DNA from: Escallonia rubra
Lineage: Eukaryota > Streptophyta > Magnoliopsida > Escalloniales > Escalloniaceae
Assembly: GCA_033065855.1 (NCBI GenBank)
Contig: JAVXUO010002733.1
Coordinates: 62,001 to 126,000, forward strand
Reading direction: 5' to 3'
DNA length: 64,000 nucleotides
Shown: one piece after another, positions 5,143-62,103 of the stretch
How positions within the stretch are numbered: position 1 is the first letter of the stretch
Layout: the number at the start of each line of letters is the position of its first letter
The notes under the pieces: model-generated
Told to the model about the DNA's origin: nothing
The model's input: only the letters and a program-made list of their open reading frames with translations
The model's database searches: none
Program-made: the position numbers and the translations under genes

Positions 5143-5640
5143 CCCCAGAGGGCTGGTGGAGCGCGGAGCTCATGCAACTACCCTCGAGGGTTCAACGGAA
5201 TTTAAGAATTCTCGTCATACACGCCCTCGGGGCGGATGGAGCCGGAGCTCATACAATTACCCTCAAGGGTTTGACGGAATTTAAGAATTCTCGTCATACA
5301 CGCCCTCGGGGGCGGATGGAGCCGGAGCTCATGCAATTACCCTCGAGGGTTTTGACGGAATTTAAGAATTCTCATCATAGACGCCCTCGGGGGCGGATGG
5401 AGCCGGAGCTCATGCAATTACCCTCGAGGGTTTGACGGAATTTAAGAATTCTCATCATACACGCCCTCGGGGGCGGATGAAGCCGGAGCTCATGCAATTA
5501 CCCTCGAGGGTTTGACGGAATTTAAGAATTCTCATCATACACGTCCTCGGGGGCGGATGGAGCCGGAGCTCATGCAATTACCCTCGAGGGTTTGACGGAA
5601 TTGAAGAATTCTCGTCGTATGCGCCCTCAGGGGTTTCTTG
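5143..5640. repeat. Tandem array, about 81-bp unit, five full copies plus partial ends
   Basis: The unit starts near ACGCCCTCGGGGGCGG and runs through GGAGCTCATGCAATTACC, CCTCGAGGG and GGAATTTAAGAATTCTC. Full copies begin near 5220, 5299, 5381, 5462 and 5543, with a diverged partial copy before and a fragment after. Each unit carries short palindromes (CCCTCGAGGG, GAATTC). Long open frames across the array are a by-product of a unit length divisible by three and are not genes. Confidence 0.9.
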
Positions 5641-9018: not shown

Positions 9019-9021
9019 TCA

Positions 9022-9451
9022 GGCTCTTTTTGACAACACTTTTTTTTTTCAGTTTTCAAAAAAAATAATAATAAAGAGCAGTTAAATTCTTTTTTTTTAC
9101 AAAAACAAGTGGATGTTTTGATAACATAGTTTTTATTTTGAGTTTTTTTTGTGTTTGATTACCCAGTTTTTTTTTTGTGGTGGCGGTGGTCGACGGTGGT
9201 GGTGGTAGGGCGTGGCAGTGGCCAGCGGTGGCCGCCGCCGCCGGCAGTCGCTGCCGGAGGTGGGAGGGTGGTGGTCTCAAAAAAAAATTTGAAACTGAAA
9301 ATTGAAACTCATTTTGGAGTTTTTAAAAACAGCCTTGGTTTAAAAACTGAATTTTCAAACTGAAGGGAAAAAAAAAACGAAAAATTGTTACCAAACGTAA
9401 CTTTTTTTTCCAGTTTCCAAAACTGAAAAAAAAAGACCTGTCAAACGGGCC
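9022..9451. mobile_element. PIF/Harbinger-like MITE with GGN-rich core, copy 1
   Basis: About 430 bases with terminal inverted repeats (left GGCTCTTTTTGACAACAC, right end reverse-complemented GGCCCGTTTGACAGGTC). It is flanked by the 3-base repeat TCA. The interior has T-rich arms and a GGTGGCGGTGG-type core at about 9176-9275. It encodes no transposase. The superfamily call rests on the 3-base duplication, which is TTA or TAA in the sister copies, and on the end sequence. Confidence 0.65.
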
Positions 9452-14605: not shown

Positions 14606-15018
14606 TGAAACCAATAAAATAACCCCCTCTCAAGAACCGCACTTTTGTGAATGGTTATGAATTCACATGCAATGCACAAGGTGTCCTAAGGTCTTTTTAG
14701 GTCATAATCATCGATCCAAGCATCAAACCAAGACTAGTTACATAATAGGAAAGATCAATTATAATCGATAGTAACTTAGCCGATGCATTCTTTGTTACTC
14801 TTCGACATTGGACTTGATGAAGCTTCTATAGCATGTCCACTATAACTTTAAGCTTCTTTAGATTTAATCCATCTATCCAACTTCTCAAATGTGTCTTCAT
14901 GAGTGTGCATGTATATACCTACTAAGAATACACTCAAAGCACACATTAGAACATAATCAATGTGTAGTTATCATCAAAACAAGATGTAAGCCTAGGTTAT
15001 CCAACCATAGGGCTAACA
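14606..15018 (-). mobile_element. Shortened solo LTR of the Copia-like family
   Basis: It begins TGAAACCAATAAAATAACC and ends AACCATAGGGCTAACA, the reverse complement of the LTR ends seen at 27755-34534. It is flanked by GAAAC on both sides (14601-14605 and 15019-15023). At 413 bases it is much shorter than the about 1.34-kb LTRs of its relatives, so it is a partial fossil. There is no internal region, consistent with LTR-LTR recombination. Confidence 0.85.
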
Positions 15019-15199: not shown

Positions 15200-16355
15200 C
15201 CTATTAGTGTCTTGCCCAACAATCTACAAGCATATTTGGGATCTAACTCATTAAAAGGATTCTTTGTGGGTGAAGTGGTGCCATATATACATTATTAAAA
15301 ATCAAACCTATGGTCTTTTAAACCCCTTGTCATACTGTCTTCGACATGGAGTAAAATTGTGAAGTACAGAGGCATGGTACAACATTATGTATGGCATATT
15401 ATAGGGAATGGCCAAAAAACTTGGTTGTGGTATGACAATTGGATGCCTTATGGAAACCTCAATGCAAAGTTTGGAAGTAGAATCATATATGACTCTACTT
15501 TAAGGAAAGAAAGCAAGGTCGGTGAAATCATAGATGGTGATAGCTGGAAACTCCCTCAAGCAAGATCTCTTGCACTCGGAATATGGCAGGATGATCTTAC
15601 CAATTTGCATCCTCAGGTGGACAAAGGGGACCAAGTGATATGGACACTAACACCGAACAAAAAAATTTATGTGAACTCTGCATGGCATCAAGTAAGAACA
15701 AAGAAAGCTATAATGCCTTGGTGGAAAATGATTTGGTTCAATGGACATATACCTAAATGTGCAATTATCTTGTCGATGATGTGCAAAGGTGGATTCAGGA
15801 TAAAAGATAAACTAATGAAGTGGAATGCTATAGTAGATGAGAAATGTGTTTTCTGTGATCAGAAGGAAACTAAACAACATCTATTCTGATAATGCTCTTA
15901 TATCAATAAAGTGTAGAAAACAATCCTGGAGAAGTTGCTACCACAAATGCCATGGCAATCATGGTCCCAGTTTTTAAGCTATGCCTATAAGAAATTCAGA
16001 GGAAAGAGCTTTCATGCAAAGCTATGCAAAATAGGGACTGTTGTGACTGTATACATGATATGAGCTGAGAGAAACTTGAGGATCTTTGAACAACAACAAA
16101 GATCCACTGAAGATGTGATCCTACAGATAACACAATGGATGCAATGGTGTGTTCATAGCTAGAAGAAAGTCCCTAGACATAGTACTAATAAAAGGCTGGC
16201 ACTGGGTTGGGCAGACATGAAGGAATCCTATTGTCTTGAGTTCTCCTTATGATGATAATATAAGGACATGATGATGTAAAGTAGTGGTGGCACTCATCTC
16301 TGTAAACTCAATTTTGTAGCAATACAATTGATCTTTCACCCAAAAAAAAAAAAAC
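15200..16355 (+). mobile_element. 5'-truncated LINE (L1-type) fragment with poly-A tail
   Basis: This is the 3' end of a plant non-LTR retrotransposon. The longest open frame (15359-15889, 176 codons) carries the zinc-binding domain that follows the reverse transcriptase in plant L1 ORF2: WYDNWMPYGNL, VNSAWHQVRTK, WFNGHIPKCAI, and CVFCDQKETKQHLF. Upstream the same protein reads KHIWDLTH then KDSLWVKWCHIYIIKN in another frame with a stop between. Downstream, PWQSWSQFLSYAYKKFRG and ERNLRIFEQQQ occur in a shifted frame, so the copy has at least two frameshifts and one stop. An A-tract at about 16340-16352 is the probable tail. It lacks the endonuclease and the RT core, so it is dead. Confidence 0.85.
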
Positions 16356-17400
16356 AATCACCATGTTCTTATACTTTTTCTTCTTGAGTTTTCTAAGTCC
16401 ACACACGCACCTTCACCATAAATCACCGTAGAACAATTAGTTTCGAGATTGTGCTTATTTCATCATGGATGCCGTAAAACTGTGAAGGCTACACAACTTT
16501 AAGAAGTCGAGAGGCTTGAAAGGTTTAATGGGTTGAATTAGAAGAGATTAAGTATGAAGATACAACTAAGTGGCCTATATGCTTTCAATGGGGGCACATG
16601 AAGTTGAAGACTTGATTCATCAATGGAGCAACAATCGCTGATGGTTTGAACATTGCTTCCCCAAGTAACTCGCAATCAACCAAACAGATACAAGTGTCTT
16701 CTCACGAGTAATCAAAAGAAATGGTTGGACGACGACTATGTGTACCGTTATGCCATTCTTAATTCCATGACGAACAATCTTTTCAACGTGTTTCACAAGA
16801 TTACTACAGCATGAGAGGTGTGAAATGTGATTCAAAGGAAGTGTACGAATGAGATGCCAATAATGTAACGACCCGGGACTCTGGAGCTCCGTCGCCCCTA
16901 ACTCCCGAAACGTTAACCTAACACATCACATCATATCAGACACTGTTCTAATATAGACTTCAGAGTTTCTAGTAAACATTAACTTAAATTCTCCAAATAC
17001 ACAGTCTAAAAAAACAACTTAAAAACTTAACCTACTAAATTAAGTTCTTTATAGGATAAGCTAACAGTACCGACCCACGCAAGAGTCTTATTACTCAAAA
17101 TAGTGGCAAGTACTCCAAAATTTCACTCAGGCTCTTACTCATCCCTGGGCAATCTACTGATGTTCGTTACCTGTAAAAGGGAACAAATGAGGGTGAAATT
17201 TTGAGAGCTCAGTAAGGTCGCTCAATGAACAACCAAAGGAGTTACGAAACGATTTAAGATTCAATTTGAAGACACTTTTTCAAGAGATTACAAAACAGTC
17301 ACAAATAGTTTGATAACAATATGGCAAGAGCTTCAACTCAATCCCCTTCAATAAGATATCAGAACAATCATTTTCAAAACAATCATTTAAAGATACAATG

Positions 17401-20400
17401 TGTAACAACCCGAAATTCTCGGATCGTTAACCGATCAATCCATCGAACCTCAACTGTTCAATTTATTCATTACCACTAGAGGTACGTAGTAACATTCACA
17501 TCAGAGCACTATAATCCGTCAATTGTCTAGCTCAACAAACCATTCCTATCACAAAACAATTGTAAGGTACTTAATTTATTAGATTACATAACAGTTCCCT
17601 AGCAAGGCTTGATTAAACAAATAATGGAAACCATAAACTATTCTGAAAATTCAGGCTCGATCGTCCTGAAATCTTACTGACGGTTATTTCCTGCAGAAAG
17701 GAACAGAAAAGGGAGTGAGCTTTCGAGAGCTCAGTAAGGTCGCTCAAAATTCAGTAAGATTACAAATGATTTGGTCAGATGGTTATGTCAATGACAACAT
17801 AGAAACGATATTTTCAAATTCGCAATTCAAGATTCAATAAATGCACTTTCGATTTCACTGAAGCAATGCAGATGATATTGGACATGAGTATATTGCAAAG
17901 CCACACAGGCAGTGCAGGGTAACACTTAGCAAAGCCACACAGGCAGTGCTTAATAACAATATGGTTACATATGCATATGAACACTAGCTAGACCCTCAAG
18001 GTACTAGCATTTCCCGACAATAACAGACCATCCTTATATCACCCCCGATACAGACCATCCTTATAACTCCTCAATACACTACCTCATGCCAATATGCAGA
18101 ATGCAATAAGCGATATTACAATGAACAAATCGACACTCAAAGAGAAATAAGTACTGAGCATCGAATGAGATTTTCAATAAACGTGTCAGGCTCAAACAAA
18201 GGTTATTAATGACAAACGATACAATTTCATCACAATTATAATTGAGTCCAAAGAAATAACGATAGCAAATCAGAATAATATATGAATCAAATAGAGGAGT
18301 TAGGTTCGGATGAAATTCCCTTACCTCGATCCAAGCGCTGAAGCTAAAACGTTTTCGAACAAATCCTCGAAGTTAACCTAGGTTGGCAAAGTCATTTATC
18401 AGAACACTTATTCATGCCACTACATTAAAATCTTAATATAATTATCCATAGCGTACCCATTTCTCTACCCGGATATGATGAAACTCGGAGCGATTTTTCA
18501 CACGGCCAACCTACCCCGAAGTTCGCCACACGTCCCGAGACTCAGAAATATCCCAAAAATGCTCTAATCGTTCATTTAACATTATTTATAGCTTAATATA
18601 GCATATGGGATAAAAATATAATTTTTTGAATATTTTTGAATAAAAATAATTTCCTTAAATACACTAAAACCAATAAATTGCCATAATTTCTTCTAGCTGG
18701 AAATAAAGGCTCATAATTTTTGTAACAGCTTTAGAAGACTTATAAAAATTTCTGAAATTGAAATTAGAAATAAAAAGGCGTTAAAATATTTTAAAAAGCT
18801 TCATTTTTGTTAAATTCAATGCGATAGAAAAATGATAGCAAATGTACTCTAAAAATCACCAAATTTACACTGAGTCTTTATTATACTATAAAAGTGTTAC
18901 TGTAATGTTTGCTAGAACATTTTTAGGGTTTAAGGGCTTCAAAAGAATTTTACCATTCTAACCTTACAGAAAATATTAAAAATACATATGATCTCAGAAA
19001 ATTATAAAATTTTACCAGTAATTCTAGCATAGTCTCAGGTACTATAATATAAATTTTCACATTCTAATATTCACTATACACTATGAAAAGTTCATGCTAA
19101 GCTTAACGTTAACCTACACACACACACACACACACAGCACAGCACAACACAGCACTTCTCCAGCCACTCTCGCACACTAATGCACTCAGAATTGTCACAC
19201 ACACACACACGCACTTCACCACCCCCACTACACGGCTGCACTCGATGGTCCTCATCTCTCTCTGTCTCTCTCTCTCTCTAAAATTTACACCCACAACTTA
19301 TGGTCCTTATTCTCTCAAAAACCACAGGCACACACCTTTGTATACATATAAACACTTACTACATATAATTGAAAATGTGTCCATTGCCATACCCCTGTCT
19401 CCTTCTTCTTCTTTCATTCCATTATATTCTACATATATAGTATAAAATCCTTCACAGACTCACTCACACTCACAAATGCTCTTCACATTCTTGCAAACCC
19501 ATATGATTTTTCATACCCACTGCCTCATGGCAGTGGGTCTATCCTTACATCCACTGATAACCCACAAACGCACGGCCATGGTGTCCACTGAACCCACTGC
19601 TTCATGCAGTGGTGTTCCTCTCATTTGTTCAGCTGTCCTCACCAACGGCACACATACAAAACACATCATTCATGACCTACCCACATGTTATATACACCCA
19701 GCGCACAAACACCACTATACACGCCTACAAACACACATATATATATAGCACTTCCAAGGCTGCCTCTCCCCAAATCGCCATTTCCTTTCCTGCATACACC
19801 CTTCTTTGCTTTTCCTTTAACACCCTCACACTTATATATGTATAAACCCATTGTTCAACACATTTACACACAGTGACACAAAGTTAATTAAACCCACAAG
19901 CCACTTTTCTCCCTCACGGCAGCCATGGCTGCCACCTTCTTCTTCTCTCTCTCTCTAAAGATAGCCTTTCCCGGATGCTTCTATCTCTCCTCACAGCCGC
20001 AAACAACTACGGCAGCCACCATGGCTGCCCTCTCTACGAATTCCCTCCCATTCGAACCATAACGGCATTGAAACGCATCTTACGGCAGTCTACATGGTAC
20101 ACAGTCACAGCCACCACAGTTGTGACTGCTTGATGGCCGGTTACACTCACGGAATCACGGAATTACACACACAAAACACCCGGCCGAAGCGCCCCCTTAA
20201 ACCATAAATCTGTGAACAATTTGTAAAAGAAAAGGTTTAGGAACACTTACCGAAAAAAATCAAGGACGATCGCCGGAATCTTGTCATGTCCTTCCTCTCT
20301 GTGTGTATCTCTCTAGCTCTCCCTCAGTCTCGACAGTGGTTGTGACGGCTGAATTGGGAGCCCTTGAACGGCTGCCCAAACGTGCCATATGTGTATATAT

Positions 20401-20917
20401 ATGCTAAAAGAAACCCTAGTTGGAAACCTGTAAAGAAAACTCTACACATCCATTTGTCGCTAAAACTTCTAACCCAACTTATTATTGCGAAAATGGTCCC
20501 ATAAATATAATATTTATGATACATGATTTGTTAGGAAAATTATAAATAGATTGTTACACATCCGGTCTGGAAAATCGTCGCTAATAAGTACACCGCTACT
20601 AAAAATTTAATTGTCGCTGAAAGTATACCGAATGCTAATGCAGATAGTTCGCCGCTAAAAATACACGTTGGCGTTAAGTAAATATATATAAAAAAAATGT
20701 CGCTAAAGGTTGTCGTTAAAAATTCGGTCACGCTAATCATCACTAAACACTTCAATCAATATTACTTATGACTGTTAACATTAAATTATTAATTATTATT
20801 TCTAAAATAATTTTGTCGCTAAGTGTCACAAACTATAACGCTCAGCTCCTCTAACCTATAGCATTTCTCTTTTTTTTTTTTTACCGTAAAATTAGCATAA
20901 AATTTTGGGATGTTACA
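17401..20917. mobile_element. Large solo-LTR-like element Q, 3.5 kb, inside P
   Basis: It begins TGTAACAACCCGAAATTC and ends TTTTGGGATGTTACA, flanked by CAATG at 17396-17400 and 20918-20922. It carries GAGCTCAGTAAGGTCGCTCA at about 17729, a short repeated phrase AAAGCCACACAGGCAGTGC near 17900 and 17935, and a long CA-, CT-rich part (19110-20200). No coding region is recognised. The short open frames in the CA-rich part are low complexity. Confidence 0.8.
19113..19215. repeat. CA microsatellites in element Q
   Basis: CA runs at 19116-19136 and 19198-19210. They are part of the LTR-like sequence rather than a separate insertion. Confidence 0.8.
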
Positions 20918-21679
20918 CAATGTGAACAAATTCAGAAGATATTGACCATGAGCATAGGCAAAGCCACATAGGAATGCCCAATAAAGACTACATATGCATA
21001 ATTTAGAATAACTAGTCCATCAAGGTGCTAGCATTCGTTCCACGCAGCAGACCAACCTTATAAAGCCTCCCACATAACGGACTCCCATGTCAATATACAG
21101 AAAATATCAACCACTGAATCAACAAATAATTCAATGCTCGGCAAACAATAAGAGATGAGCGTCGACATGAATTCAAATAACCGATTTAGGCAACATGCTG
21201 ATATCAATTCATCACTCCGAGTTCAAGAATAGACATGAACAACTCGAAAGAACATATACGAACACAAGTTGACGGATTTAGGTTTGGACAGAAATCATTT
21301 ACCTCGATCGAAGCTAAGCGATCCTAATCGAAAAATCTTCAGTCTTAGCCTAAACGGAACAATCAAATAATCAGACTACAATCTAAGCTAGAATCCTTTT
21401 AAAACAATACCACTTACTCATATTCCCAAAATGACCTATTCACTAGATATGTAAAATTACCAAAACACCCTGTCTAGGTAAAAAATTATCAAAAACACCC
21501 CCTCTCATGTCTAAATCACCAGAACGTCCTTCTTGTAAGTAAAATCACTAAAGTACCCCTACTGTATGTGAATTTACCAAAAAAATACCTCCCCTAAGTA
21601 AAAGTATCAAAGCACCTCCTCTGGGTGGAATATTACTATTAGCCCTATGGTTGGATAACATAGGCTAATTACATTTCGT

Positions 21680-23561
21680 TGTTCCTAACCTATCTTGGCT
21701 ACACCTATAGGCCCTCTGGGGGTCCTAATTCTCATGACACGTTGGCACATTCAACGGTCAACTTTTCAACGTTCACAAGCCGGTCAAAGTGACACATAAT
21801 CAAGACACGTGAATTTGCTCCTTGGCGCGCCTTTCCCCTTAAGGAGGTCGGCCACCTTCCCCTTCAAGGGGTCGACCCCATTCCTTTACTTCTCTTCAAG
21901 GGCTCATGCATCATCCGTGACGCCCGTCGCCCGTGGTCGCGCGCCATATCCGCGATTCGCGCCATTGCCCGCGTGCCAATTTCACAGCGCCCATCACCGT
22001 CGCTGGCGTGCTGGCTTCACGGAGCGCGTCACCCACGCGCCGGCTTCACGGTGCCCGTCGCCCGTGGTCGCACATCGTCTCCACGACGCCCGTCATCACC
22101 CGTGCACCGGCTTCACGGCGCCCATCGCCATCGCCCGCGTTTCGTCTCCAACACTATGTCGCGCCCATGCGTCGTGCCATTAACACAATCGTGCCCCCTG
22201 GCTCTTTGTCACACTACCATGCTCCTTACATTGGTCCATCCTTTCACCACACCATGCGCACCTTGCCTTGGTCGTGGAACATACTTTGACCCACTCTCTG
22301 GAGTGTGCAGCACCCGCAGGGATATGCGACTCCTCCGGGACACTATCTCCGACAGGAAGCTCCAAGTGCTCCGGCATGAAGACTCCCCTTCCGCCAGGTA
22401 GACGACTCCTCCGGGATGCTACCTTGACGCGCTCCGAGTACTCTGGCACAAGGACTCACCCTCAAGGATATGCAACTTCTCCAGGACACTATCTCCGCCA
22501 GGAAGCTTTTCAACTCCCTTTCTGCCAGGTAGACGGCTCCTCCGGGATGCTACCTCGGCCCGTCAGGTAGACGGCTCCTCCGGGATGCTACCTTGACGCG
22601 CTCCGAGTGCTCTGGCACAAGGACTCACCTGCGGGGATAGGCGAATCATCCGGGACACTATCTCCGCCAGGGAGTTCTAAGTGCTCCGGCATGAAGACTC
22701 CCCTTCTGCCAGGTAGACGAGCTCTTCCGGGATGCTACCTCACCCTGCCGAGTAGATGGCTCCTCCGGGATGCTACCTCGGTCTGTAGATAGGCGACTCC
22801 TCTGGGACACTATCTGCGCCAGGGTGTCTGCGTGACTGGCCTACGTGCTCCGCCACTGGGTGCTTGCATTGGCACCCCTATGGACTATGACCCCCGGGTC
22901 ACTCTGAGACGGGAGCAGGTCTTCGGAGGGCATCGTGCCTAGTTCACCTGGCAGTTGGGCGTCGGGTCTTCCCCACCGCTGTCAGGCCTATGGGGCTTTG
23001 CAAGGGCTTGGATTGGTGGCTAGATCAAGGGGTGTTCTCTGGCAACACTGACGCTGTGGTAGCCAGTCTTTCTAGACAGACAAAGCGACGCTGTGAGGAG
23101 CAAGCCGAGTGAATATCCGATCCGACAGTCCAACGGATAATCGGTATTTCTAGACCCCCATGGTGATGTGTCACTCCTAGGGGATGACACGTGTCAGCTG
23201 ATGACATATGCACACTTTTCCCTATAAATAGGGGACTTTGGAACTCATTTTAAAAAAGAACCCTCTCATTCGACATTTTCACATTCTCACTCAAGAATCC
23301 AAATCCTTTGGAATTCCAGAGAGAGAAACATATAAGACCTTGACTCTAGGCCTAAGCATCGAACTGTGACTGTCGTCGTATATTCGCCTAGCACCGTCAC
23401 TCTTGCAGCACTGCCACCCTCAGGCTCTGTTTGGGAAGCCCTTGGTCTCTGCCCTTACTCCACCCTTGTTATGTCCCACATCAGCACACTTGGCATCTGA
23501 CACAGACTGCATTTCTTGTGGCACCTCCACGTCGACTGGGAACCCACTTTCCTTGGCATCA
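21680..23561. mobile_element. Solo-LTR-like insertion S (1.9 kb) inside the 5' LTR of A
   Basis: The A-type LTR sequence breaks off after TTACAT and resumes at CTTGTTTTGAT. The inserted DNA begins TGTTCCTAACC and ends TTGGCATCA, with TTCGT before and CTTGT after, a probable 5-base duplication with two differences. A strong TATA box (CCTATAAATAGGGGA, near 23221) followed by a leader-like stretch supports an LTR. No coding region is recognised. The family is unknown, possibly Ty3/Gypsy. Confidence 0.65.
22300..22830. repeat. Degenerate tandem repeats inside S
   Basis: The phrase CTCCTCCGGGATGCTACC and its sister CTCCTCCGGGACACTATCTC recur about nine times, mixed with GCTCCGGCATGAAGACTCCC and GCTCTGGCACAAGGACTCAC. 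Open frames here are by-products of the repeats. Confidence 0.75.
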
Positions 23562-24900
23562 CTTGTTTTGATAATAACTACACATTGATTATGTTTTAAT
23601 ATGTTTTTTGAGTGGATTCTTAGTATGTATGCACATACACACTCATGAACACACATTTGAGAAGTTGGATAGATGGATTAAAGCCAAAGAAGCTTAAAGC
23701 TATAGTTGACATGCTATGGAAGCTTCATCAAGTCCAATGTTAAAGAGCATGAAAGAATGCAAAGGCTAAGTTACTATCGATTATGATTGATCTTTAGTAT
23801 TATGTAACTAGTCTTGGTTTGATGCTTGGATTGATGACTATGACCTAAAATAACCTTAGACACCTTGTGCATTGCATGTGAGTACATAACCTTTCACACA
23901 AGTGTGATTCTTAAAAATTAGTGAATTTTGGAGCTTACTCAGATTTTCTCAAAAATGTTTTTGGTGCTAAACTTTTCATATTTTGATAAAACTTTTCTTT
24001 AGCTTTCCCATGCAAAAAATGGCACCTCAATCCGATTTTTCTAGAGAAGTTATGGCCAAAATAAGAAATGGGGTTTTGTGACGCATCTGATAGGCAATAG
24101 GGTAATGCAGTCGACTGTATGTTGCATTGCAATACAGTCGACTGTATTGGTCAAAATTTAGTTTTAACGGCTATATTTCATATCTTCTCTATATAAATAA
24201 TTTGGGGCTTCATCATACACCATGAAAAACCATATTCTAAGCCTCCATTCATTAAAGAAACATTAAGGCTCATTGATTAAATTTTTCTCTCTTCATCTTC
24301 TTGATTTTACATCATTAAAGAGAGAGTCTTCGTGAGCAATTCTTTGATTGATAGTGAGCATTATTCAAGTCATCAATTCTCCCATCTCTCATTTGTACTC
24401 ATTTCCTTTCAAGATGATTTCTTTATACACATTTGATCTTTGTAAAAGGATTGTGATCAAGGCTTGGTTTTGTTAAGTCTTGGGTGAGCTTTGTGGATTC
24501 AAGGCTTGTGCTTGGTGTGGGGATATCACCAAGTGTTGTAAGGGTTTTGATCTTGACCCGGAAGAAGATTGTTACTAGTGGATTCTAGTGCTCTTGCAAG
24601 GGACTTCCTTGAAGAGGTGGATGTAGGCTTGAGTCTTCAAGCCGAACCATTAAATCTCCCTGTCAAGTATCTTTAACTCAATCTCTTTACTTATTGCTCT
24701 ACAATTGCTTAAGATTGTGTAGTTAGCATCTTGATTGAAGTATTACTTGGTTTGATTGAGATTTATGATTGTGCTTAGTTTAAATTTCCTATTAAAAGAA
24801 AACCCTATTCACCCCCCTCTAGGATTGTTTTATTGGTTTCAAGTGGTATCAGATCCTCAGCTCTTGATTTTTTGGTTAACACCTAGAGAGTTAAAAGATC

Positions 24901-26608
24901 ATGGGGCTTAGTCTTGAGGGGAGTTCTATTATTAGACCTCCATTTTTTGATTGGTCATTGTATAGTACATGAAAAATTAAGATTAGAGTATTTTTAGAGT
25001 CTTTAGACTTTGAAATGTGGGGAGTCATTGAAGATGGCCCTTATGTTCCCTCCAAGTTTATTAGAGATAAACTTGTGCCAAAAAAGAAATCTGAATTTAA
25101 TGACTATGATAAAAATATGCTTTGCATGAATTCTAGAGCTAAGAATTGTCTTATTTGTTCTCTAAACACAAATGAACTCAATCGAGTTATTATGTGTGAT
25201 TCGGCTAAGAGTATGTGGGATACACTTCAAGTCACTCATGAAGGAACCTCTCTTTTAAGAGATTCAAAGATGAATTTATGGCATAGAGAATATGAATTGT
25301 TTCAAATGTTTTCGGATGAATCCATTACGGAAATGAATTTTTGTTTCGCTAAAATTGTTAATACTTTGAAACAATTAGAAAAAGATTTCTCCAATAGTGA
25401 TCTTGCGAGAAAGGTAATTAGGTCATTACCTAGAGAATAGGATGCAAAAATCACCACACTTCAAGAATCAAAGTATCTTAATACCTTCCCGTTGGATGAA
25501 TTAATTTGCTCCTTGATCACCCATGAAATGCAACTCGAATCATCCGGACAAAAAGTTTCAAAGAAGAAGAAGAAGTGCATTGCTCTTAAAGCTTCATCAA
25601 TGATGGATTAATCTTCAACTAAAGAGGCATAGGACTTGAATAACAAGGAGATGGATATATTTGCTAAGGAATTCAATGAGTTTCTCAAAATTAAGAAAGT
25701 TAGAAACTCACACAAGAGCATGAATGATTCAAGTGTAGAGATTACCTCATGGGAGAATAAGAAGAAGAAAAGGTCAAGAAAGAAGCACTCTGTAAAGTCA
25801 TCAATCGAAGTCATCATTTGTAGTGATAATGACTCAAGTGAGGATGAATGTGGTTATTTCGATGATAGATATGCAAATTTATGCTTCATGGCTCAAAAAG
25901 ATGATGAGGTAAATTCTTCATAAATTGATAGTGATAGTGATAACAATTGTTCCAATGATGATATTTGTGATCCTTATGCTCTTTTATACGAAGAATCCAT
26001 GAAATTAGCCAAAAAAAATTATGCTTTAAAAAACAAGTACATGCGATTTCAAAAGAGCTAGATGACTTAAAAATGAAAATAATGAGTTGCATGCCAAGAA
26101 TGAATCCATATCTAACCATTTATATGTGGAGCATGTTAATGATGACTTGGTTGAATTAATTGTTAACACTCTTAGCTCAAAACAAATCTTTTGCAAAATT
26201 TTGGCTTTAGAAAAACAAGATGAAGATTTAAAACTTGAGATTTATGATTTGAAAAATTTTCTTAAAAAAATTGTTGATGGTCAAAACAATTTGGATGTCA
26301 TATTCGGACGCCAAAGAATTAGCCTAAACAAAGGTGGTCATGGATTAGATCCATTCACCTTTCCTCCTAAAGTTTTTCAACAACAAGTTAGGTTGAATAT
26401 TCATACAAAACAACCAAAGAACTATTACACACTATTTACACATTATGGTTGGTGCAACAAGAAAGGGCATATGACTAGTTATTGTCCTTGTAGAATTGTT
26501 TATGTTGGAGGTGTAAAGAAAATGTGGGTTGTTAAAGAGTTTCTTAATGTTGCTAAGACTAACACCAACGGACCCAAGAAAATGTGGGTACCAAAAGTTG
26601 GGACCTAA
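24901..26608 (+). pseudogene. Copia-type gag of element A (fossil)
   Basis: The reading starts with ATG at 24901 (GLSLEGSSIIRPPFFDW) and includes EMWGVIEDGPYVPSKF and AKSMWDTLQVTHEGTSLL, typical of plant Copia gag. A zinc-knuckle-like CNKKGHMTSYC and the phrase KKMWVPK near 26580 mark the C-terminal part. It is broken into several frames. It would have formed the capsid; no function remains. Confidence 0.85.
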
Positions 26609-27754
26609 ATTGTAATTGTAAGTTGTTCAAAGCAAAGGAAAATAACAACAAGGAGAAGGCTCCAACAAAATTTTGAAAATGAGGAAAAACAAGCTAAATC
26701 TTTAGGCGGAGTAAGCATTCCAAGATTGGACATACTACTTCAAATGATGAGTGCCTCAAAGCTTGTCAAAGAAAACGGACTTCAAGAATGATTACTCATG
26801 AGCTCAATCCTTGGTAATTCACCATAAGGGTAAAACTTAATGATCTTCTCAATATTGTGCTATGTGCTAAACTTATATTTCGTCAAGTATGCTTAAATTG
26901 TCAAATCTATAAAATAACTTGCTTGTTGAGAATTCATGCGAACTATGGTCTAAATTGTGAGTCCTTGATTGTTTACTTCTCTATGTTATAATCTTGGATA
27001 CTTGTAGGATTTAGATGACGATGAATGGTCCTCTTGCACTTATGTTGGAAATATTGATTGTTGATGACCTTTATTCGTGTCATGAGAATTCCATCTTGAG
27101 ATTATGTCATCTTAATGCTTCACGTTGTCATTCCTACACACACACACACACACTCTTTTTGGTAATGTCAAAAAGAGAGCATGACTTGGTTATACATTTA
27201 GTTATGTTTTTTTGGATATTGTTGGTATTATTTGAGGGGGAGCATACATTAGGATGGAATATGCATATGGTAACTTGATAGGGAAGCTTACATGCTTGAA
27301 TCACATACTATCTTGCTCCTATTGAGAAATGCATGAAGTAAATAAGATTATTGAACTACATTGCATATCATTCTATTGATCATGAATGAACTCTTGATGT
27401 CATCTGTATGAGTTCATGAGTTAGATGCACTTCTCGCCATTATCTTTCTTATAACTATCTCTTAACACACGCATACCCTTGTCTTTTTGTTGACGAAAAA
27501 GGGGGAGAAATAATCTTGATTCTATATGCTAAGTGATAGTGTGTTTCGAGAGAACATTAGAGGAAGATCATATCTTGTTTTAGCTAGGGGACGCTAGCTA
27601 TGAGCTTAATTTCTATATGAGAAAAATTGACATATCTTGAGTATACTAGAAATGACTGAATGCTCTAAGTGAATTATTGTGCTTAATTGACTATCTTATG
27701 ATACATCTTACCTTATATAGAATCAATGTTTGTCATCATAAAAAAGGAGGAGAT
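26609..27754 (+). other. Non-coding tail of element A between gag and the 3' LTR
   Basis: No pol domain is seen. The same stretch, similar throughout, lies between gag and LTR in element B (30370-31440, minus strand), so this is the inherited layout of the family. It ends in the purine tract. Confidence 0.75.
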
Positions 27755-29032
27755 TGTTAGCCCTATGGTTGGATAACCTAGGCTTACATCTTGTTTTGAT
27801 GATAACTACACATTGATTATGTTTTAATGTGTGCTTTGAGTGGATTCTTAGTAGGTATACACATACACACTCATGAAGATACATTTGAGAAGTTGGATAG
27901 ATGGATTAAATCCAAAGAAGCTTAAAGCTATAGTGGGTGGACATGCTATGTAAGCTTCATCAAGTTCAATGTCAAAGAGCAAGAAAGAATGCAAAGGCTA
28001 AGTTACTATCGATTATTATCAATTTTTACTATTATGTAATTAGTCTTGGTTTGATGCTTGGATTCATGAATATGACATAAAATGACCTTAGGACACTTTG
28101 TGCATTGCTTGTGAGTTCATAACCTTTCACACAAGTGTGGTTCTTGAAAATTAATGAATTTCGGAGCTTACTCTGATTTTCTCAAAACTATTTTTAGTGC
28201 TAAACTTTTCATATTTTGATAAATATTTTCCTTAGTTTTCCAATGCAAAAAAATGACACCTCAATCCGATTTTTCTAGAGAAAGTTATGGCCAAAATTGG
28301 AAATGGGGTTTTGTAAGGCAACTGATAGGCAGTAGGGTAATACAGTCGACTGCATTGGTCAAAATTTGGTTCTAACGGCTATATTTCATATATTCTCTAT
28401 ATAAATGATTTGGAGCTTCATCATACACCATGAAAAATCATATTCTAGGCTTCCATTCACTAGATAAACATCAAGGCTCATAGATTAAACTTTTCTCTTT
28501 ATCTTCATGATTTTACATCATTAAATAGAGCATCTTTGTGAGCAATTCTTTGATTGATAGTGAGCATTCCTCAAGTCGTCAATTCTATCATCTCTCTATT
28601 GTACTAGAGCTTCATTTGTACTCATTTCCTTTCAAGAGGGTTTCTTTGTACACATTTGATCACTGTAAAAGTATTGTGATCAAGGCTTGGGTTTGTCAAG
28701 TCTTGGGTGAGCTTTGTGGATTCAAGGCTTGTGCTTGGTATGGGGATATCACCAAGTGCTGTAAAGATTTTGGTCTTGACCCGGAAGAAGATTGTTGTTA
28801 GTGAATTCTAGTGCTCTTGCAAGGGACTTCCTTGAAAAGGTGGATGCAGGCTTGAGGGTAATTCAAGACGAACCATTGAAATCTCCTTGTCAAGTATCTC
28901 TGACTCTATAATTGCTTGAGATTGTGTAGTTAGCATCTTGATTGAAGTATTACTTGGTTTGATTGAGATTTATGATTGTTCTTAGTTTAAATTCCCCATT
29001 AAAAAAATCATATTCACCCCTCTCTAGGTTTG
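27755..29032 (+). repeat. 3' LTR of element A (main part)
   Basis: Starts TGTTAGCCCTATGGTTGGAT. The last 14 bases of this LTR lie at 34521-34534, beyond element B. It holds one CAGTCGACTG palindrome at 28343. The 87-codon open frame at 28538 is LTR sequence, not a gene. Confidence 0.85.
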
Positions 29033-30369
29033 TGAAACCAATAAAATAACCCTAGAGGGGGGTGAATAGGGTTTTAAGACTACTTTAAAAATTAACAAAC
29101 AACTAACATCAATCTCAACACAAATGTAAAACGAGATGGTTCAGCTTAAATGGTTCAGCTTGATATATCCTCAAACCTACATCTACCTCTTCAAGGAAGT
29201 CCCTTGCAAGAGTACTGGAATCCAGTAGCAACAATCTTTTTCCGGTTCAAGCCCAAAACCCTTTAAACACTTAGTGATATCCCCACACCAAGCACAAGCC
29301 TTGAATCCACAAAGCTCACCCAAGACTTGACAAACCCAAGCCTTGATCACAATCCTTTTACAAAGATCAAATGTGTACAAAGAAATCCTCTTGAAAGGAA
29401 ATGAGTACAAATGAAGCTCTAGTACAATAGAGAGATGAGAGAATTGATGACTTGAAGGATGCTCATTCTCAATCAAAGAATTGCTCACAAAGATGCTCTC
29501 TTTAATGATGTAAAATCATGAAGATGAAGAGAAATAAGTTTAATCTATGAGCCTTGATGTTTCTCTAATGAATGGAGGCTTAGAATATGGTTTCCATGGT
29601 GTATGATGAAGCCCCAAATCATTTATATAGAGAGCAAATGAAATATAGCCGTTATAGGCATAATATGGGCAAAACTGCCATTGCAGTCAACAGTAACCCA
29701 TTGCAGTCGACTGTATTCCCTAAAAAATAGCCATTGGAACTGAATTTTGACCAATGAAGTCGACTGCATTGGAATGCAGTCGACTGGATTACCCTACTGC
29801 CAATCAGCTGCCTCACGGAACCCCCTTTCCTATTTTGGGCATAACTTTCTCTAGAAAAATCGGATTGAGGTGCCGTTTTTTGCGTTGGAAAGCTAATGAA
29901 AATTTTTATCAAGATATGAAAATATTAGCACCAAAAACATTTTTAAAAAAATCTGAGTAAGCTCCAAGGTTCACTCATTTTCAAGAACCGCACTTGTGTG
30001 AATGGTTATGAACTCACATGTAATGCATAAGGTGTCCTAAGGTCTTTTTAGGTCATAGTCATCAATCCAAGCATCAAACCAAGACTAGTTACATAATAGG
30101 AAAGATCAATTATAATCGATAGTAACTTAGCCGATGCATTCTTTGTTGCTCTTCGACATTGGACTTGATGAAGCTTCTATAGCATGTCCATTATAACTTT
30201 AAGCTTCTTTGGCTTTAATCCATCTATCCAACTTCTCAAATGTGTCTTCATGAGTGTGCATGTATATACCTACTAAGAATACACTCAAAGCATACATTAG
30301 AACATAATCAATGTGTAGTTATCATCAAAACAAGATGTAAGCCTAGGTTATCCAACCATAGGGCTAACA
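29033..30369 (-). repeat. 3' LTR of element B
   Basis: TGAAACCAATAAAATAACCC to CATAGGGCTAACA on the plus strand. It has CAGTCGACTG palindromes at 29704 and 29777. The 101-codon minus-strand frame at 29183-29488 matches the one in A's LTR and is not a gene. Confidence 0.85.
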
Positions 30370-31439
30370 ATCTCCCCCTTTTTGATGATGACAAACATTG
30401 ATTCTATGTAGGGTAAGATGTATCATATGATAGTCAATTAAGCACAACAATATCACGTGCATAGAATATTCAATCATCTCTAGTACACTCAAGACATGTC
30501 AATTTATCTCATATAGCAATTAAGCTCATAGCTAGCTTCCCCTAGCTAAAACAAGATATACTCTTCCTCTAATGTTCTTTTACACAATCACATAGCATAT
30601 AGAATCAAGATTATTTCTCCCTCTTTGTCATCAACAAAAAGACAAGGGTATGCATGTGCGAAAAAGATAATAATAAGCAAGATAATGACGTGAAGTGCAT
30701 ATTACTCATGAACTCATACAGATGACATCAAGAGTTCCTTCATGTTTAAAAGAAATATATGCAATGTAGCTAAATAATCTCGTTTACTTCATGCACTTTT
30801 CAAGAGTAACAAGATAGTATATGATTGAAGCATGTAAGCTCCCCCTATCAAGTTACCATATGCATACTCCATCCTAATGTATGCTCCCCCTCAATCAATG
30901 CATGCCAACAATATCCAACAAACACAACTGAATGTCTAACCGAGTCATATTCCCTTTTTGGCATTACCAAAAGGGGTGTGTGTATGAATGGCATTGTGAA
31001 ACATTAAGATGACATAATTTCAACATGGAATTTTCACAAAGCGAATAATGGTCATCAACAATCAATATTTTCAATATAAGTTCAAGAAGCCCGACCATTC
31101 ATCGGAAAGGTTCACATTAATTCTCAACAAGCAAGCTATTTATAGCATGGGAAATCATTTATACATGCTTCATGACATATAAGTTTAGTGTATAACACAA
31201 TGTTGAATAGAGCCAAGTTTTACCCTCTTGATGAATTACCAAGGAATTGAGCTCATGAGTGATCATTCTTGAAGTCCATTTTCTTAATAAGCTTTGAGGC
31301 TCTCCTCATTTAAAGTAGCATGTCCAATCTTGGAATGCTTACTCCCCTTCAAGATTTAGCTTGTTGTTCCTCCTTCTCAAAATTTTCTTGGAGTCTTCTC
31401 CTTGTTGCTATTTGCCTTTGCTTTTATCTACAATTAATA

Positions 31440-33144
31440 TTTAGGTCTAACTTTTGGTACCCACATTTTCTTGGGTCCATGAGTGTTAATCTTAGCAACA
31501 TTAAGAAACTCTTTAACAACCCACAGTTTCTTTACGCAGCCAACATAAACAATTCTCCAAGGACAATAACTAGTCCTATGTCCTGTCTTGTTTCACCGAC
31601 CACAACGTGTAAATGGTGTGCAATAGTTCTTTGGTTGTCTTGGAGGAACATTTAACCTAGCTTGTTGTTTAAAAACTTTAGGAGGTAAGGTGAGGGGATC
31701 TAATCCAACACCGCCTTTGTTTAGGCCAACTCTTTGGTGTCCAAGCATGACATCCAAGTTGTTTTTACCATCAACAAATTTTTCAAGGCATCTTTTCAAA
31801 TCACAAATCTCAAGCTTTAAAATTTCACTTTGTTTTTCTAAAGTCGAAGTATTACAAGAGATTTGTTTTGTGCTAGGAATGCTCACAATCAATTCAACCA
31901 AATCATTATTCACATGCTCTACATATAAATGGCTAGATATGCATTCATTCTTGGCATGTAACTCATTATTTTCACTTTTTAAGTCATCTAGCCCTTTTGA
32001 AATCGCATGCACTTTTTTTTCAAGGCACAATTTTTCTTGACTACTTTTATGGATTATTCATACAATAGAGCATAAACATTAGAAATAGCATCATTGGAGC
32101 AATTGCTATTACTATCACTATATGAAGAAGTTACCTTACCTTCTTTTTGAGCCATGAAGCATATATTTGAATCTCTATCATTGAAATCACCACATTCATC
32201 TCCACTTGAGTCATTATCGCTCCAAATAATGGCTTTAATTGATGTCTTTATGGGGTGCTTCTTTCTTGCCTCGTTCTTCTTCTTATTCTCCCTTGAGGTA
32301 CTCTCCATACTTGACTCGTTCTTGCTCTTGTGCAAGTTTCCATCTTTCTTCATTTTGAGATACTCATTAAATTCCTTTGCAAGTATATCAATCTCTTTGT
32401 TATTCAAGTCTTTCTCCTCCGCACATGAAGATTGATCCGTTGTTGATGAAGCTTTAAGAGCAATGCACTTCTTCTTCTTCTTTGAAACTTTTTGCCCGAA
32501 TGATTCAAGTTGCATTTCATAGGTCATCGAGGAGCAAATTAATTCATCCAACGGAAAGGTATTGAGATCCTTTGATTCTTGAAGTGTGGTGATTTTTGTA
32601 TCCCATTCTCTAGGTAATGACCCTATTACCTTTCTCACAAGATCACCGTTAGAGATATCTTTTCCTAATTGTTTCAACGTATCAAGAATTTTAGTGAAAC
32701 AAAAATTCATTTTCATTATAGATTCATCGGAAAACATTTGAAACAATTCATATTCTTTATGCCATAAATTCATCCTTGAATCTCTTAGAAGAGAAGTCCC
32801 TTCATGAGTGACTTGAAGTGTATCCCACATACTCTTAGCCGAATCACACATAATAACTCGATTGAGTTCATTTGTGTTTAGACCACAAACAAGACAATTC
32901 TTAGCTCTAGAATTCATGCAAAGCATATTTCTATCATAGTCATTAAATTCGGATTTCTCCTTTGGCACAAGCTTATTCCTAATCTTCTTGGTGGGAACAT
33001 AAGGGTCATCTCAACGATTGCCCAAATTTCAAAGTCTAAAGATTCTGAAACTACTGTCATCTTAATTTTCCATATACTATATGAAGACGCATAAAAAAGT
33101 AGAGGTCTAGTAATAGAACTCCCCTCAAGACTAGGAAATCCCAT
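31440..33144 (-). pseudogene. Copia-type gag of element B (fossil)
   Basis: It opens at ATG 33144 (MGFPSLEGSSITRP) and includes a 304-codon stretch at 32054-32968 with AKSMWDTLQVTHEGTSLL and DTKITTLQESKDLNTFPL, then a Lys/Glu-rich coiled part and a last block (GVGLDPLTLPPKVFKQQARL) at 31593-32030. It is homologous to gag of A. It is broken by a few changes. Confidence 0.85.
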
Positions 33145-33149
33145 GATCT

Positions 33150-34515
33150 TTTAACCAATAAAATGGCCCTAGAGAGGGAGGGGGGGTGAGTAGGGTTTTA
33201 AGACTACTTTAAAAATTAACAAACAACTAACCTCAATCTCAACACAAATGTAAAACGATAATGAAAAGAGATAAGGGTTTAGAGATACTTGACAAGGAGA
33301 TTTAAATGGTTCAGCTTGATTTACCCTCAAGCCTACATCCACCTCTTCAAGGAAGTCCCTTGCAAAAGCACTAGAATCCACTAGCAACAATCTTTTTCCG
33401 TGTCAAGATAAAAACCCTTAAAACACTTAGTGATATCCCCACACAAAGCACAAGCCTTGAATCCACAATGCTCACCAAGCCTTGATCACAATCCTTTTAC
33501 AAAGATCAAATGTGTACAAAGAAACCCTCTTGAAAGGAAATGAGTACAAATGAAGCTCTAGTGCAATAGAGAGATGAGAGAATTGATGACTTGAAGGATG
33601 CTCACTCTCAATCAAAGAATTGCTCACAAAGATGCTCTCTTTAATGATGTAAAATCATAAAGATGAAGAGAGATAAGTTTAATCTATGAGCCTTGATGTT
33701 TCTCTAATGAATGGAGGCTTAGAATGTGGTTTCCATGGTGTATGATGAAGCCCCAAATCATTTATATAGAGAGCAAATGAAATATAGCCGTTATAGGCAT
33801 AATATGGGCAAAACTGCCATTGCAGTCGACTGTAATCCAATGCAGTCGACTGTATTCCCTCGAAAATAGCCGTTGGAGTTTTGTCCTAAAAATTACCCGC
33901 TGGAACTAAATTTTGACCAATACAGTCGACTGTATTACCGTACTGCCAATCAGCTGCCTCACGAAACCCCCTTTCCTATTTTGGGCATAACTTTCTTTAG
34001 AAAAATCGGATTGAGGTGCCGTTTTTTGCGTTGGAAAGCTAATGAAAAGTGTTATCAATATATGAAAAGATTAGAACCAAAATTTTTTTTTAGAAAAACA
34101 GAGTAAGCAACAAAGTTCACTCAATTTTAAGAACCGAACTTGTGTGAATGATTATGAACTCACATGCAATGCACAAGGTGTTCTAAGGTCTTTTTAGGTC
34201 ATAGTCATCAATCCAAGAATCAAACCAAGACTAATTACATAATATGAAAGATCAATTATAATCGATAGTGACGTAGCCAATGCATACGCTGTTCCTCGTC
34301 GACCTTGTACTTGATGAAGTTTCGATAGCATGTCCACTATAACTTTAAGCTTCTTTGGCTTTAATCCATCTATACAACTTCTCAAATGTGTCTTCATGAG
34401 TGTGCATGTATATACCTACTAAGAATACACTCAAAGCACACATTAGAACATAATCAATGTGTAGTTATCATCAAAACAAGATGTAAGCCTAGGTTATCCA
34501 ACCATAGGGCTAACA
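33150..34515 (-). repeat. 5' LTR of element B
   Basis: Ends in GGGCTAACA at 34515, with the GTTTG duplication next to it. It holds three CAGTCGACTG palindromes at 33823, 33843 and 33923. Confidence 0.8.
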
Positions 34516-34539
34516 GTTTGTTTTATTGGTTTCAATTAC

Positions 34540-35792
34540 CAATACCCCCTAGTGCCCCTTGCACCGAAAAAATCTCAAACACACTTCAAAGCATCCTTTT
34601 TAGCAACCTGAAAAAAATTTCCGCTCAAAAAGTCGTAACCGATATCCGGATCGAGCGCTCAGAAGCCAGTTCCGCTAAAAAAAGTTATCGACCTCGAAAT
34701 GGCATGAAATCTAAGACACTGACACATATCAGTAAAAAAAATAGGGTTCTTTATTTTGCACTTGGCCGAAATCCGAGCATAAGTATTTTTAAACTTAAGA
34801 TTCGGGACAGCTTAAAAATTACTAACCTATAGCGACTATTACGGTTACTATTCACTACTAATCAAATCAAACACCCTGAAAACACACACTCTCTCCTAAC
34901 TCCCTCACTGCCGAAACGCACATACTTGCACACAATTTACACACTCTACTACACACCTAACACACACATCTACACCTAAAACATACACACACAAAGCACA
35001 TAGACACTCGACCCGAAACACACACACACACACGGCACAGTCACACCCACACAAACACACATTTCACAGACAAAACCCCCCCCCCCCCCCTTCCGGCAAC
35101 ACATTGAAAAACACGCACATACTCATTCAATTTCGTCCTACGTACACAACATTAACACCACAGCATATACCATAACACCACACACGCAACCACCACGCAC
35201 ACACACTGCCAAACCTACAACACACACTCTTGGTTTTTCACCTCTACACACGCACACACTGAATTTCTAAACATGCGTACTGCTGAAAATCACTAGAAAA
35301 ATACACTATAAGAGAAGATTACCTTTGGGATTTCTACAGATTTTTCTCCCCCTTCTCCCTCCCCCTCTATTTCTCTATTTGTGGCCGAAGCCCTCTGTTC
35401 CTTATCTTATATGTTTATGTTTTCTGTTTCTATTTTCTCTTGTTTGTTTTTCTTTTCTTTTTCTTTCTCAGGGATTTTCCCATTAATTTATAATTCATTT
35501 AGATTAGTCACCAATTAAGAAGTAAAAGGTGGCATTCTTTAAGACATTTTTCTTTAGAATTTTGACACATATCATGCCTAATTTCATAATAAAAATTGCA
35601 AAATAGCCCCCAAAGTTTTCATATTTATAAAATGGCCCCAAAACTTTTTGAAATTATATTCTTACCACAAAATCATTAATTTAACCTTTCATACACTACC
35701 TACTCCCGAATATCACTTAAAATTATCTCTTTTAGTTTTTCTAACCAACAAATAATTATTTTAGACATGTCAAAAAAGTACAGGATGTTACA
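34540..35792. other. Right part of element P, with CA-rich sequence and a 15-base C run
   Basis: No gene is seen. CA-rich sequence spans 34870-35230, with a homopolymer of 15 C at 35076-35090. After that come T-rich and AT-rich sequence up to the ATGTTACA end. Confidence 0.7.
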
Positions 35793-36829
35793 AATAATAA
35801 GTTTTTCCTTGTCAATGAGTTTATTGATATCAAGATGGATGATAATAGACCTATAATAGATCAAGCCAATGAACTTTGTCATATTGCTTCTAAATGTCTA
35901 GATACGGGTGCACTAATTTCAAAAACATTTTAAGTTTCCATGATAATTGGAAAGATCCGATCTTCTTGGAAGGATTACCTAAGATACTTAAAATATATGA
36001 AAAGGTTCATGAATTTGGAAATTGCTCAAATATATTCAAACTGAAAGTGAGGCTAAAAAGAATGTGCACTTGATAATAAGGAAAGAATAAAAGGTCCATC
36101 ACATGGAAGGACGAGAAGGACCGAAGTCTAATACAACGTGCACAAGGCACTCTAAAAACAACAACAAAAATAAGGAGAGGGAGATGGGAAACTTCCAAGG
36201 TGATGGTAATGACTTCTACAGAAACAAGAAAAACAAAGGTCCTTGTCTTGTTTGTGGTAAAGCAGGACATTCGGCAAAGTAGGGCAAAAGAATATTCATC
36301 TAAGCAACAAAAGCAAGAAGAATGACGAGGCAAAAATTGTTAAAGATGATGACATATTTGTAATGCTCATCGAGGTCCTCATGGTTATCAGGGAAGGTGA
36401 TTGATGGATTAATTCTGGTGCTACTTGTCATGTGACTAGAAATTTGCTTTCAAATCATATGAAGCAATGAAGGATTACTAAACATTATGGCTAAAAGATA
36501 TGCACAAAGTTCAATATAACCTCAAAATCTTAATGAATAGCTTAAATACTTTTTTTTAACAATTGACGTATTTGGACAAACTTTTTTAAAGTCCAACATA
36601 CTTTCAGTCAAATAATTGAAGACCAAAAAGATGTAAACAAAAAGGCCTAATATATTTTGCAAGAGTACAATCCGCTAGGTTTTCACTCACAGATCCACAT
36701 TTTATATAAAAACCAAGAGGGCAAAAATAATTCAAGGACTATATCGGTTACATGCTAGTAGTTCAGGGACCATAAGAAATCTTCTATTTCTTCATAAATG
36801 ACTCTAATGCTCGTGCTGCTGGGGCTGAA

Positions 36830-44190: not shown

Positions 44191-44671
44191 GGCTCCGTTT
44201 GACAACACTTTCAATTTTGGTTTTCTGTTTAAAAAAAAACAAAAATCAAAATCAGTTTATTTATTTATTTAATTTTTGCAAAATCAAGTGGGTGTTTGAT
44301 AATACAGTTTTTATTTTGAGTTTTTTTTTATTATTACCCAGTTTTTATTTTGAGTTTTTTCTTTGGCGGTGGTTTGCGGTGGCGGTGGTGGTGGCAGGCG
44401 GTGGCTGGTGGCTGCCGACCGCCGACGGTGGCCGCTGGCCTCCGGCAGACAGTGGCGGTGGGCAGTGGCTGCCAGCGGTGGGAGGGTGGTGGTGGTCTCA
44501 AAATAAAAACTAAAACTGAAAACCGAAACTCATTTTTGGAGTTTTCAAAAACAGCCCTGATTTAAAAACTGATTTTTTTAATTGAAGAAAAAAAAAACCA
44601 AAATTGTCTGCCAAACGCACTTATTTTTTCTAGTTTACAAAACTGTAAAAAAAACTCTGTCAAACGGGGCC
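44191..44671. mobile_element. PIF/Harbinger-like MITE with GGN-rich core, copy 2
   Basis: The TIRs are GGCTCCGTTTGACA at the left and TGTCAAACGGGGCC at the right (reverse complement GGCCCCGTTTGACA). It is flanked by TTA on both sides (44188-44190 and 44672-44674), the usual Tourist-type duplication. The core at about 44365-44495 is GGTGGCGGTGG-type. It has no transposase. Confidence 0.75.
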
Positions 44672-44702
44672 TTAGTAAGCTCCTCAGAGTCAGCTGAACT
44701 AA

Positions 44703-45188
44703 GGTAGCGTTTGGTAACATTTAAGTTTTCAGTTTTGTAAACTGGAGAGAAAAAACGTGTTTGATATAGAGTTTTCGTTTTTTTTTTCCCTTCAGTTTTG
44801 AAAATCAGTTTTTAAGACATAGCTGCTTTTTAATATCCCATTTTGGGGTTTTGAGTTTCCAATTTTTGTTTTTGTTTTGAGAACACCACCACCACCGCCC
44901 CACCCCCCACCACCACTGCCCCACCCCCCACCACCACTGCCACCGCCCACCGCTGTTGGCCACCGCCACTGCCTGGCGTCGTGGCCACCGCCACCACAAC
45001 CACCACCAAAGAAAAAAAAACTCAAAATAAAAATTGGGTAATCAAACATCCAAAACAAAAAAAACTCAAAATAAAAACTAGGTAATCAAACACCATTTGT
45101 TTTTGTGAAAAACAAAAATTAAACTGATTTTTGTTTTTATTTTTTTAGAAACAGAAAAGCAAAACTAAAAGTGATTTCAAACAAACCG
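44703..45188. mobile_element. PIF/Harbinger-like MITE, copy 3, inverted relative to copy 2
   Basis: Starts GGTAGCGTTTGG after TAA; ends CAAACAAACCG before TAA. The arms and core align with the reverse complement of copy 2, including the phrase TTTTATTTTGAGTTTTTT. The core is C-rich here (ACCACCACCGCCCC, 44883-45010). Only about 30 bases separate the two copies. Confidence 0.65.
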
Positions 45189-54164: not shown

Positions 54165-54980
54165 ATGGGGAAACCACTTTTCTATGAAATCTTGGATAAA
54201 CCTGCTACAAGTTGTGTTATAGGAATATGCAGTGCAATATGGTTCTATATACAGAAGAAAAACATTGGGTATTCACATGTCGGTCTGAGTTATGAAACTG
54301 CGATTGAAGGTCATCATTGGAGGTTAATAACATCTGCATTCTCTCATATCAGCTTTCTTCATCTTGTTTTCAATATGAGTGCACTTTGGAGCCTTGGAGT
54401 TGTGGAGCAGTTAGGTCACATGGGTCTTGGTGTTGAATTTTATCTCCAGTATACGCTCGTGATGGTAGTGTTATCGGGGTTGCTAGTTTTGGTGTCATAT
54501 CATGTTTTGATTAAGAAATTCAAGATGGAGTATTTTCGGAGAGTGACTGCTGTTGGGTACTCTTGTGTAGTATTTGGATGGATGACTATTCTTTCGGTGA
54601 AGCAGCCCTCATCGAAGTTGAATCTTTTTGGTTTCCTTTCGCTTCCCATCAGTTTCGCGCCATTTGAGTCGCTCATCTTTACTTCAATAATTGTTCCACA
54701 AGCAAGTTTTCTGGGGCATTTGTCAGGAATCATAGTTGGGTACTCTATCGCATGGGGTTTGATCCATGGAATGAACAATTACTGGGCTGTTTCTATGCTG
54801 GGATGGATCGTGCTTGTGTTCGTGTCCAGTCTAAAGCGGTCTGGTGCGTTTGATTTCAGCTTTCTTGAGATTGAACCTGTTACAGATCCTTCCCTGCCTT
54901 CTGTACGGTTTCTTGCACCAGGGACTGGGCGAACATTGCAAATGAGTTCACTACACGAAGCTGGTGCCGACATTGTGTAG
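54165..54980 (+). CDS. RBL13: Rhomboid-like protein, RBL13 type
   Basis: Intact 271-residue protein from ATG 54165 to TAG, without introns in the coding part. Rhomboids are membrane serine proteases that cut substrates inside the bilayer. The protein keeps the N-terminal WR motif (W52-R53), the HxxxxHxxxN block (H61, H66, N70: [10 protein letters not shown]), the catalytic Ser133 in GYSCVVFG (the residue after Ser is Cys where many active rhomboids have Gly), and His185 in FLGHLSG. About six hydrophobic helices fit a rhomboid core. The start [17 protein letters not shown] and the overall sequence recall Arabidopsis RBL13 strongly, and the length is close. Substrate and compartment are not known from sequence; RBL13-type proteins are poorly characterised. 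It is flanked by a MULE on the left and looks host-conserved. Confidence 0.93.
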
Positions 54981-61940: not shown

Positions 61941-62031
61941 GCTACGTAGATCAGTCAAACTAAAAAATCTAAAAGCAAGACTTTGAGGCATTCATGCTGT
62001 TTTGACTTTGAGAATGAATTAGTCTATACAC

Positions 62032-62049: not shown

Positions 62050-62103
62050 TTGAAGGAGGGAGAAAGAAAATTGCAGAGCAGCGCCGGAGAAGAAGAGAGG
62101 GAG

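Follow-up and report, generated by a model that had tools for sequence, protein, structure and literature searches.

Five nested old LTR retrotransposon insertions with 5-bp target duplications in Escallonia rubra

In what order did the retrotransposons that lie stacked in one place of an Escallonia rubra contig arrive there, and do the divergences of their LTRs agree with that order? We analysed a stretch of 64,000 nucleotides (contig JAVXUO010002733.1, positions 62,001 to 126,000 of the forward strand; hereafter the window, with positions counted from its first letter). The region 16864-35792 consists of five nested old LTR retrotransposon insertions with 5-bp target duplications. Element ends were fixed by self-comparison of the window and by reading of positions 16000-37200. 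The original prediction, which was of five stacked insertions, held in this respect: all five elements and their duplications were found where it had placed them, and its nesting and its outline of the element types both checked out. The outermost element, P (16864-35792), is flanked by AATAA on both sides and has the ends TGTAAC..GTTACA. Inside P lie Q (17401-20917; 3517 bp), with the same ends and CAATG on both sides, and A (21637-34534, plus strand), with ATTAC on both sides, a gag matching PF14223, a PBS and a PPT; the strand of P and of Q is not settled. The 5′ LTR of A in turn contains S (21680-23561; 1882 bp; given without a strand), which runs TGTTCC..GCATCA between TTCGT and CTTGT, and the 3′ LTR of A contains B (29033-34515, minus strand), which is oriented opposite to A and lies between two copies of GTTTG.

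As had been predicted, the duplications of P, Q, A and B are exact and that of S is not. For a pair of 5-mers drawn at random from the window, the chance of agreement is P=0.0014. A comparison of 441 placements at each pair of ends found the predicted one to match exactly in P, Q, A and B; there were further exact placements for P (two), Q (four) and B (one) and none for A. Five of these seven extra placements are displaced by one or two bases and stay in register. The 5-mers are therefore fixed by the TG..CA ends of the elements and not by the match alone. These ends are intact in four of the five elements; A begins with TA, which we read as a decayed TG. The two 5-mers at S agree in three of five bases, and the single exact match among its 441 placements is off register. 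Since about 12% of random 5-mer pairs agree in at least three of five bases, the duplication of S is weak when taken alone; the S insertion rests on its empty site in A's 3′ LTR, not on the duplication.

Whether the flanks of each element join into continuous sequence could be checked within the window for three of the five insertions (S, B and Q), because their target exists there twice; the target of A in P has no second copy in the window. This check, which had been proposed together with the original prediction, showed that the flanks join for S and B and, more weakly, for Q. The empty site of S is A's 3′ LTR, reading ..GGCTTACATCTTGTTTTGATG.., and A's 5′ LTR, when joined across S, matches it except for three extra bases and some substitutions. 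B's LTRs also have CTTGT at the position of the S site, which argues that TTCGT is the decayed copy of the S duplication. B has its empty site at the end of A's 5′ LTR, where the short joined flanks of B match. For Q, the stretches of P to the left and to the right of the Q site resemble Q collinearly, so that the paralogue Q itself serves as a weaker empty site.

LTR pairs are present for A and B only, so P, Q and S cannot be dated by LTR divergence. The first 43 bp of A's 5′ LTR, including one duplication copy, are at 21637-21679 and the rest is at 23562-24841; its 3′ LTR runs from 27755 to 29032, up to B, with the last 14 bp at 34521-34534 (all on the plus strand). B, on the minus strand, has its 3′ LTR on the left (29033-30369) and its 5′ LTR on the right (33155-34515), as delimited by self-comparison and LTR alignment. 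With five gap settings, the Kimura distance was 0.091-0.093 for A and 0.059-0.072 for B, and the bootstrap probability that A exceeds B was 0.93, 0.97, 0.98, 0.99 and 0.97. In 1049 chosen columns (those present in all four LTRs, minus the badly aligned columns 565-710 and 1207-1345) the distances were 0.100 for A and 0.068 for B (bootstrap 0.99), and 0.098 and 0.064 without CpG columns; transversions alone numbered 38 in A and 35 in B. As this choice of columns could favour a larger value for A, we added whole-pair alignments. MAFFT alignment of the pairs gave 0.093 for A versus 0.087 for B, and a five-way alignment with all columns gave 0.0955 versus 0.0911; both are near ties, which stem in part from unlike indels in B's LTRs that were aligned as substitutions. 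The comparison of LTR divergence with nesting, also proposed beforehand, thus brought no contradiction: A exceeded B in all six pairwise alignments and in the five-way alignment, two of these being the near ties. The LTR ages lean toward the nesting order, mostly through transitions.

We are highly confident that successive nested insertions explain the block, and weighed this explanation against two others. The similarity of A and B extends over most of their length and their orientations are opposite, which would also be seen if B were an inverted duplicate of A and not a separate insertion. Such an origin, however, accounts neither for the exact GTTTG duplication nor for the empty site in A's 5′ LTR. 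Moreover, internal divergence between A and B is K=0.149 across 2038 aligned positions and K=0.145 across 720, greater than that between the two LTRs of A (0.093); if rates are alike, this is unexpected for a later copy. B's LTRs also share indels that are absent from A's. We therefore regard inverted duplication as scarcely credible. The 1049 LTR columns contain 47 informative sites, 38 of which group the LTRs by element; the remaining nine join A's 5′ LTR with B's right LTR (five sites) or with B's left LTR (four sites), and four of the nine, of both kinds, are at columns 357-436. These nine sites were also inspected for gene conversion between A and B, and no tract of one kind was seen.

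The other alternative concerns P, whose two ends might belong to two elements, with A and Q lying between elements and not inside P. P's own sequence, some 2.5 kb long, is split into three pieces (16864-17400, 20923-21636 and 34540-35792) and is partly collinear with Q over the left two: bases 32-362 of the P piece align with bases 9-347 of Q, and P from 20923 onwards aligns with bases 459-515 and 529-1050 of Q, with identities of 61-79%. No alignment to Q was obtained for the 175 bases of P that adjoin the Q site on its left. The right third of P (34540-35792) does not align solidly to Q either: the only alignments are of CA-rich simple sequence and a weak one on the reverse strand, and it is this piece that speaks for two elements. 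Against them stand the exact AATAA duplication and the mirror-image ends of P, the same as in Q, as well as the CA-rich tract, which lies at a similar distance from the last aligned point in both (about 690 bases in P and 670 in Q, as reckoned from the alignment). Furthermore, gag-like remnants lie on both sides of P. The left one (16650-16863, plus strand), which ends with the first AATAA copy (16859-16863), was read as probable Copia gag by eye; neither of its two overlapping pieces (34 and 54 aa) matched any Pfam entry. The right one (35793-36467, plus strand), also probable Copia gag, begins with the second AATAA copy; its match to positions 80-121 of PF14223 is weak (E=0.022; 14.7 bits, where the cut-off is 27), it has zinc-knuckle-like and protease-like pieces, recognized by eye, and two further pieces of it gave no Pfam match. 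From the left side as read by eye and the weak match on the right, the target of P was probably a Copia gag. A pair of separate elements at the two ends is thus very unlikely, and we continue with P as one element that hosts Q and A.

Self-comparison revealed no terminal direct repeat of at least 50 bp in P, Q or S, and all three are probably solo LTRs. Tekay is a second name of Del, a Ty3/gypsy group. Judging by its end sequences, Q may tentatively be called Del/Tekay-like, and so, perhaps, may P. On the minus strand, P and Q begin with TGTAACATCC, which agrees at nine of ten positions with TGTAACACCC; this latter sequence is what the relevant part of PMC4029996 gives as the commonest U3 site of sorghum and maize Del. 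The kilobase-long LTRs are a further likeness to the elements described there. The plus strand fits this site equally well in Q (TGTAACAACC) and nearly so in P (TGTAACGACC), leaving the strand ambiguous. Unlike the Del elements in that part of PMC4029996, P and Q, when read on the minus strand, have the U5 GGG one position off, and neither has a coding part.

The divergence of B's LTRs is uneven. Differences between the LTRs of A are evenly spread (variance to mean 0.70, reached by 3942 of 5000 permutations), whereas those of B are clustered (2.75, reached by 0 of 5000); the longest difference-free run is not unusual in either element (101 bases in B, 201 of 2000 permutations; 61 bases in A, 632 of 2000). 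A further member of the A/B family, T, lies outside the block (14606-15018, minus strand; 413 bp, with exact GAAAC on both sides). T is a short, internally deleted solo LTR and a separate insertion, and is 97.2% identical to B's left LTR over 389 positions. Among the 387 positions shared by T and B's two LTRs, 11 differ between B's left LTR and T, 23 between the left and right LTRs of B, and 25 between T and B's right LTR. B's left LTR is thus closer to T than to its own partner, which places the excess changes in the right LTR. Transversions make up 22 of the 34 changes private to the right LTR and 5 of the 17 private to the left. The clustered differences in the right LTR would be accounted for by an assembly error or by conversion from a diverged relative, and either is possible. 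Because the differences are clustered, the value for B is not clock-like and its age is rough; the distance of B is better taken as an upper bound.

Other features of the window were recorded alongside T. A LINE-type remnant with a zf-RVT domain (PF13966, E=1.8e-13) occupies 15299-16355, and an A-rich run seen by eye near 16345 may be its tail. A tandem array of six copies of an 80-bp unit is found at 5150-5633. A long imperfect inverted repeat (71.5% over 1029 positions) and dispersed related pieces, at 44197-45182, 9021-9449 and 60999-61914, are possibly a DNA transposon family. Open reading frames encode a rhomboid domain (54165-54980) and an F-box-associated domain (62023-63312). These two frames, the zf-RVT piece and the Copia-type gag give the window a content typical of plants. 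The window gave no hit to Rfam at the gathering threshold and none in a tRNA search.

The internal parts of A and B (2913 and 2785 bp) are mostly gag, which is of Copia type and in both elements is now interrupted by stops. The broken gag of A (24973-26605, plus strand) matches PF14223 in its first open piece (24973-25437, E=2.4e-21), and its two later open pieces gave none above the Pfam cut-off. That of B (31596-33010, minus strand) matches in 32057-33010 (E=4.1e-24), with none above the cut-off in the piece 31596-32057. Ten of the 11 stop-free linker pieces of A and B (at least 45 aa) were scanned for pol; none reached the Pfam cut-off, and no reverse transcriptase or integrase was matched in them. 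No relative turned up when viral contigs were scanned with B's gag. An LTR pair with gag alone, or with gag and protease, is characteristic of the non-autonomous TR-GAG elements (PMC6022998), and A and B share this make-up, with ten of the 11 linker pieces free of any other domain; they differ from the elements in the relevant part of that paper in that the gag of both is broken by stops.

A and B also resemble the Ty1/copia Sireviruses, whose conserved 5′ LTR/PBS junction is CA-ATTGG (or AGTGG)-TATCAGAGC in the part of PMC2829016 that deals with it. The junction of A, CA-AGTGG-TATCAGATC, has one mismatch to this form and shares the LTR end, the AGTGG and the TATCAGA-type PBS; the PBS of B was lost by deletion, a difference from the Sireviruses, so the junction is found in one of the two elements. 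Like the Sireviruses, both have AGGGGGAG tracts ahead of the 3′ LTR: B has three copies, one of them exact and starting 10 bp ahead of the LTR, and A has AGGAGGAG at the corresponding place and two exact AGGGGGAG copies upstream. Further likenesses are a C-rich stretch near the LTR end and repeated CAGTCGACTG palindromes, recognized by eye, that precede a TATA-like stretch. The palindromes are without the CGG-CCG core, which PMC2829016, in the part concerned, reports in every one of its repeated motifs except that of Tnd-1. Placement in the genus is based on an element's own pol; A and B have gag only, so we call them Sirevirus-like and not members. The two share the same gag-to-linker layout despite an internal difference of about 15%. 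Since this difference exceeds the LTR divergence of A, their common ancestor, and hence the gag-only layout, would be older than A's insertion if rates are alike. We put it at even chances that A, B and T form a gag-only Sirevirus-like lineage, which would have lost pol before A inserted and then multiplied as a family of its own.

Successive insertion into the block most likely proceeded as follows. P inserted into what was probably a decaying Copia gag; Q and, at another site, A subsequently inserted into P. After A had landed, its 5′ LTR received S, and its 3′ LTR received the sister element B in the opposite direction. Each integration duplicated 5 bp of its target, as the sequence still records (at S now in three of five bases). 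Recombination between their own LTRs would probably have reduced P, Q and S to solo LTRs, and A and B, having no pol, would probably have been copied with the proteins of an autonomous relative. Nesting places P before Q and A, and A before S and B; it does not order Q relative to A, S and B, or S relative to B, and by our own count 8 of the 120 orders of events are compatible with it. The relative timeline of the original prediction therefore stands as a partial order, not as a full timeline. A survey of nested LTR retrotransposons in 15 plants found 25% of pairs (1042 of 4126) to be discordant (PMC7251063). In that survey, as here, LTR elements lie in LTR elements and nesting order is compared with LTR divergence; as far as the relevant part of it goes, the present block does not differ in kind, and its single testable pair, A and B, is concordant.

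Structures of this kind are well known; the novelty lies in the particular instance, in the insertion T outside the block and in the uneven divergence of B's LTRs. With its clustered differences, and with a left LTR nearer to T than to its partner, B shows a limit of LTR dating. The block as a whole is a clean worked example of insertion order read from target duplications, in which two empty sites, those of S and B, are preserved in the other LTR of the host element A.
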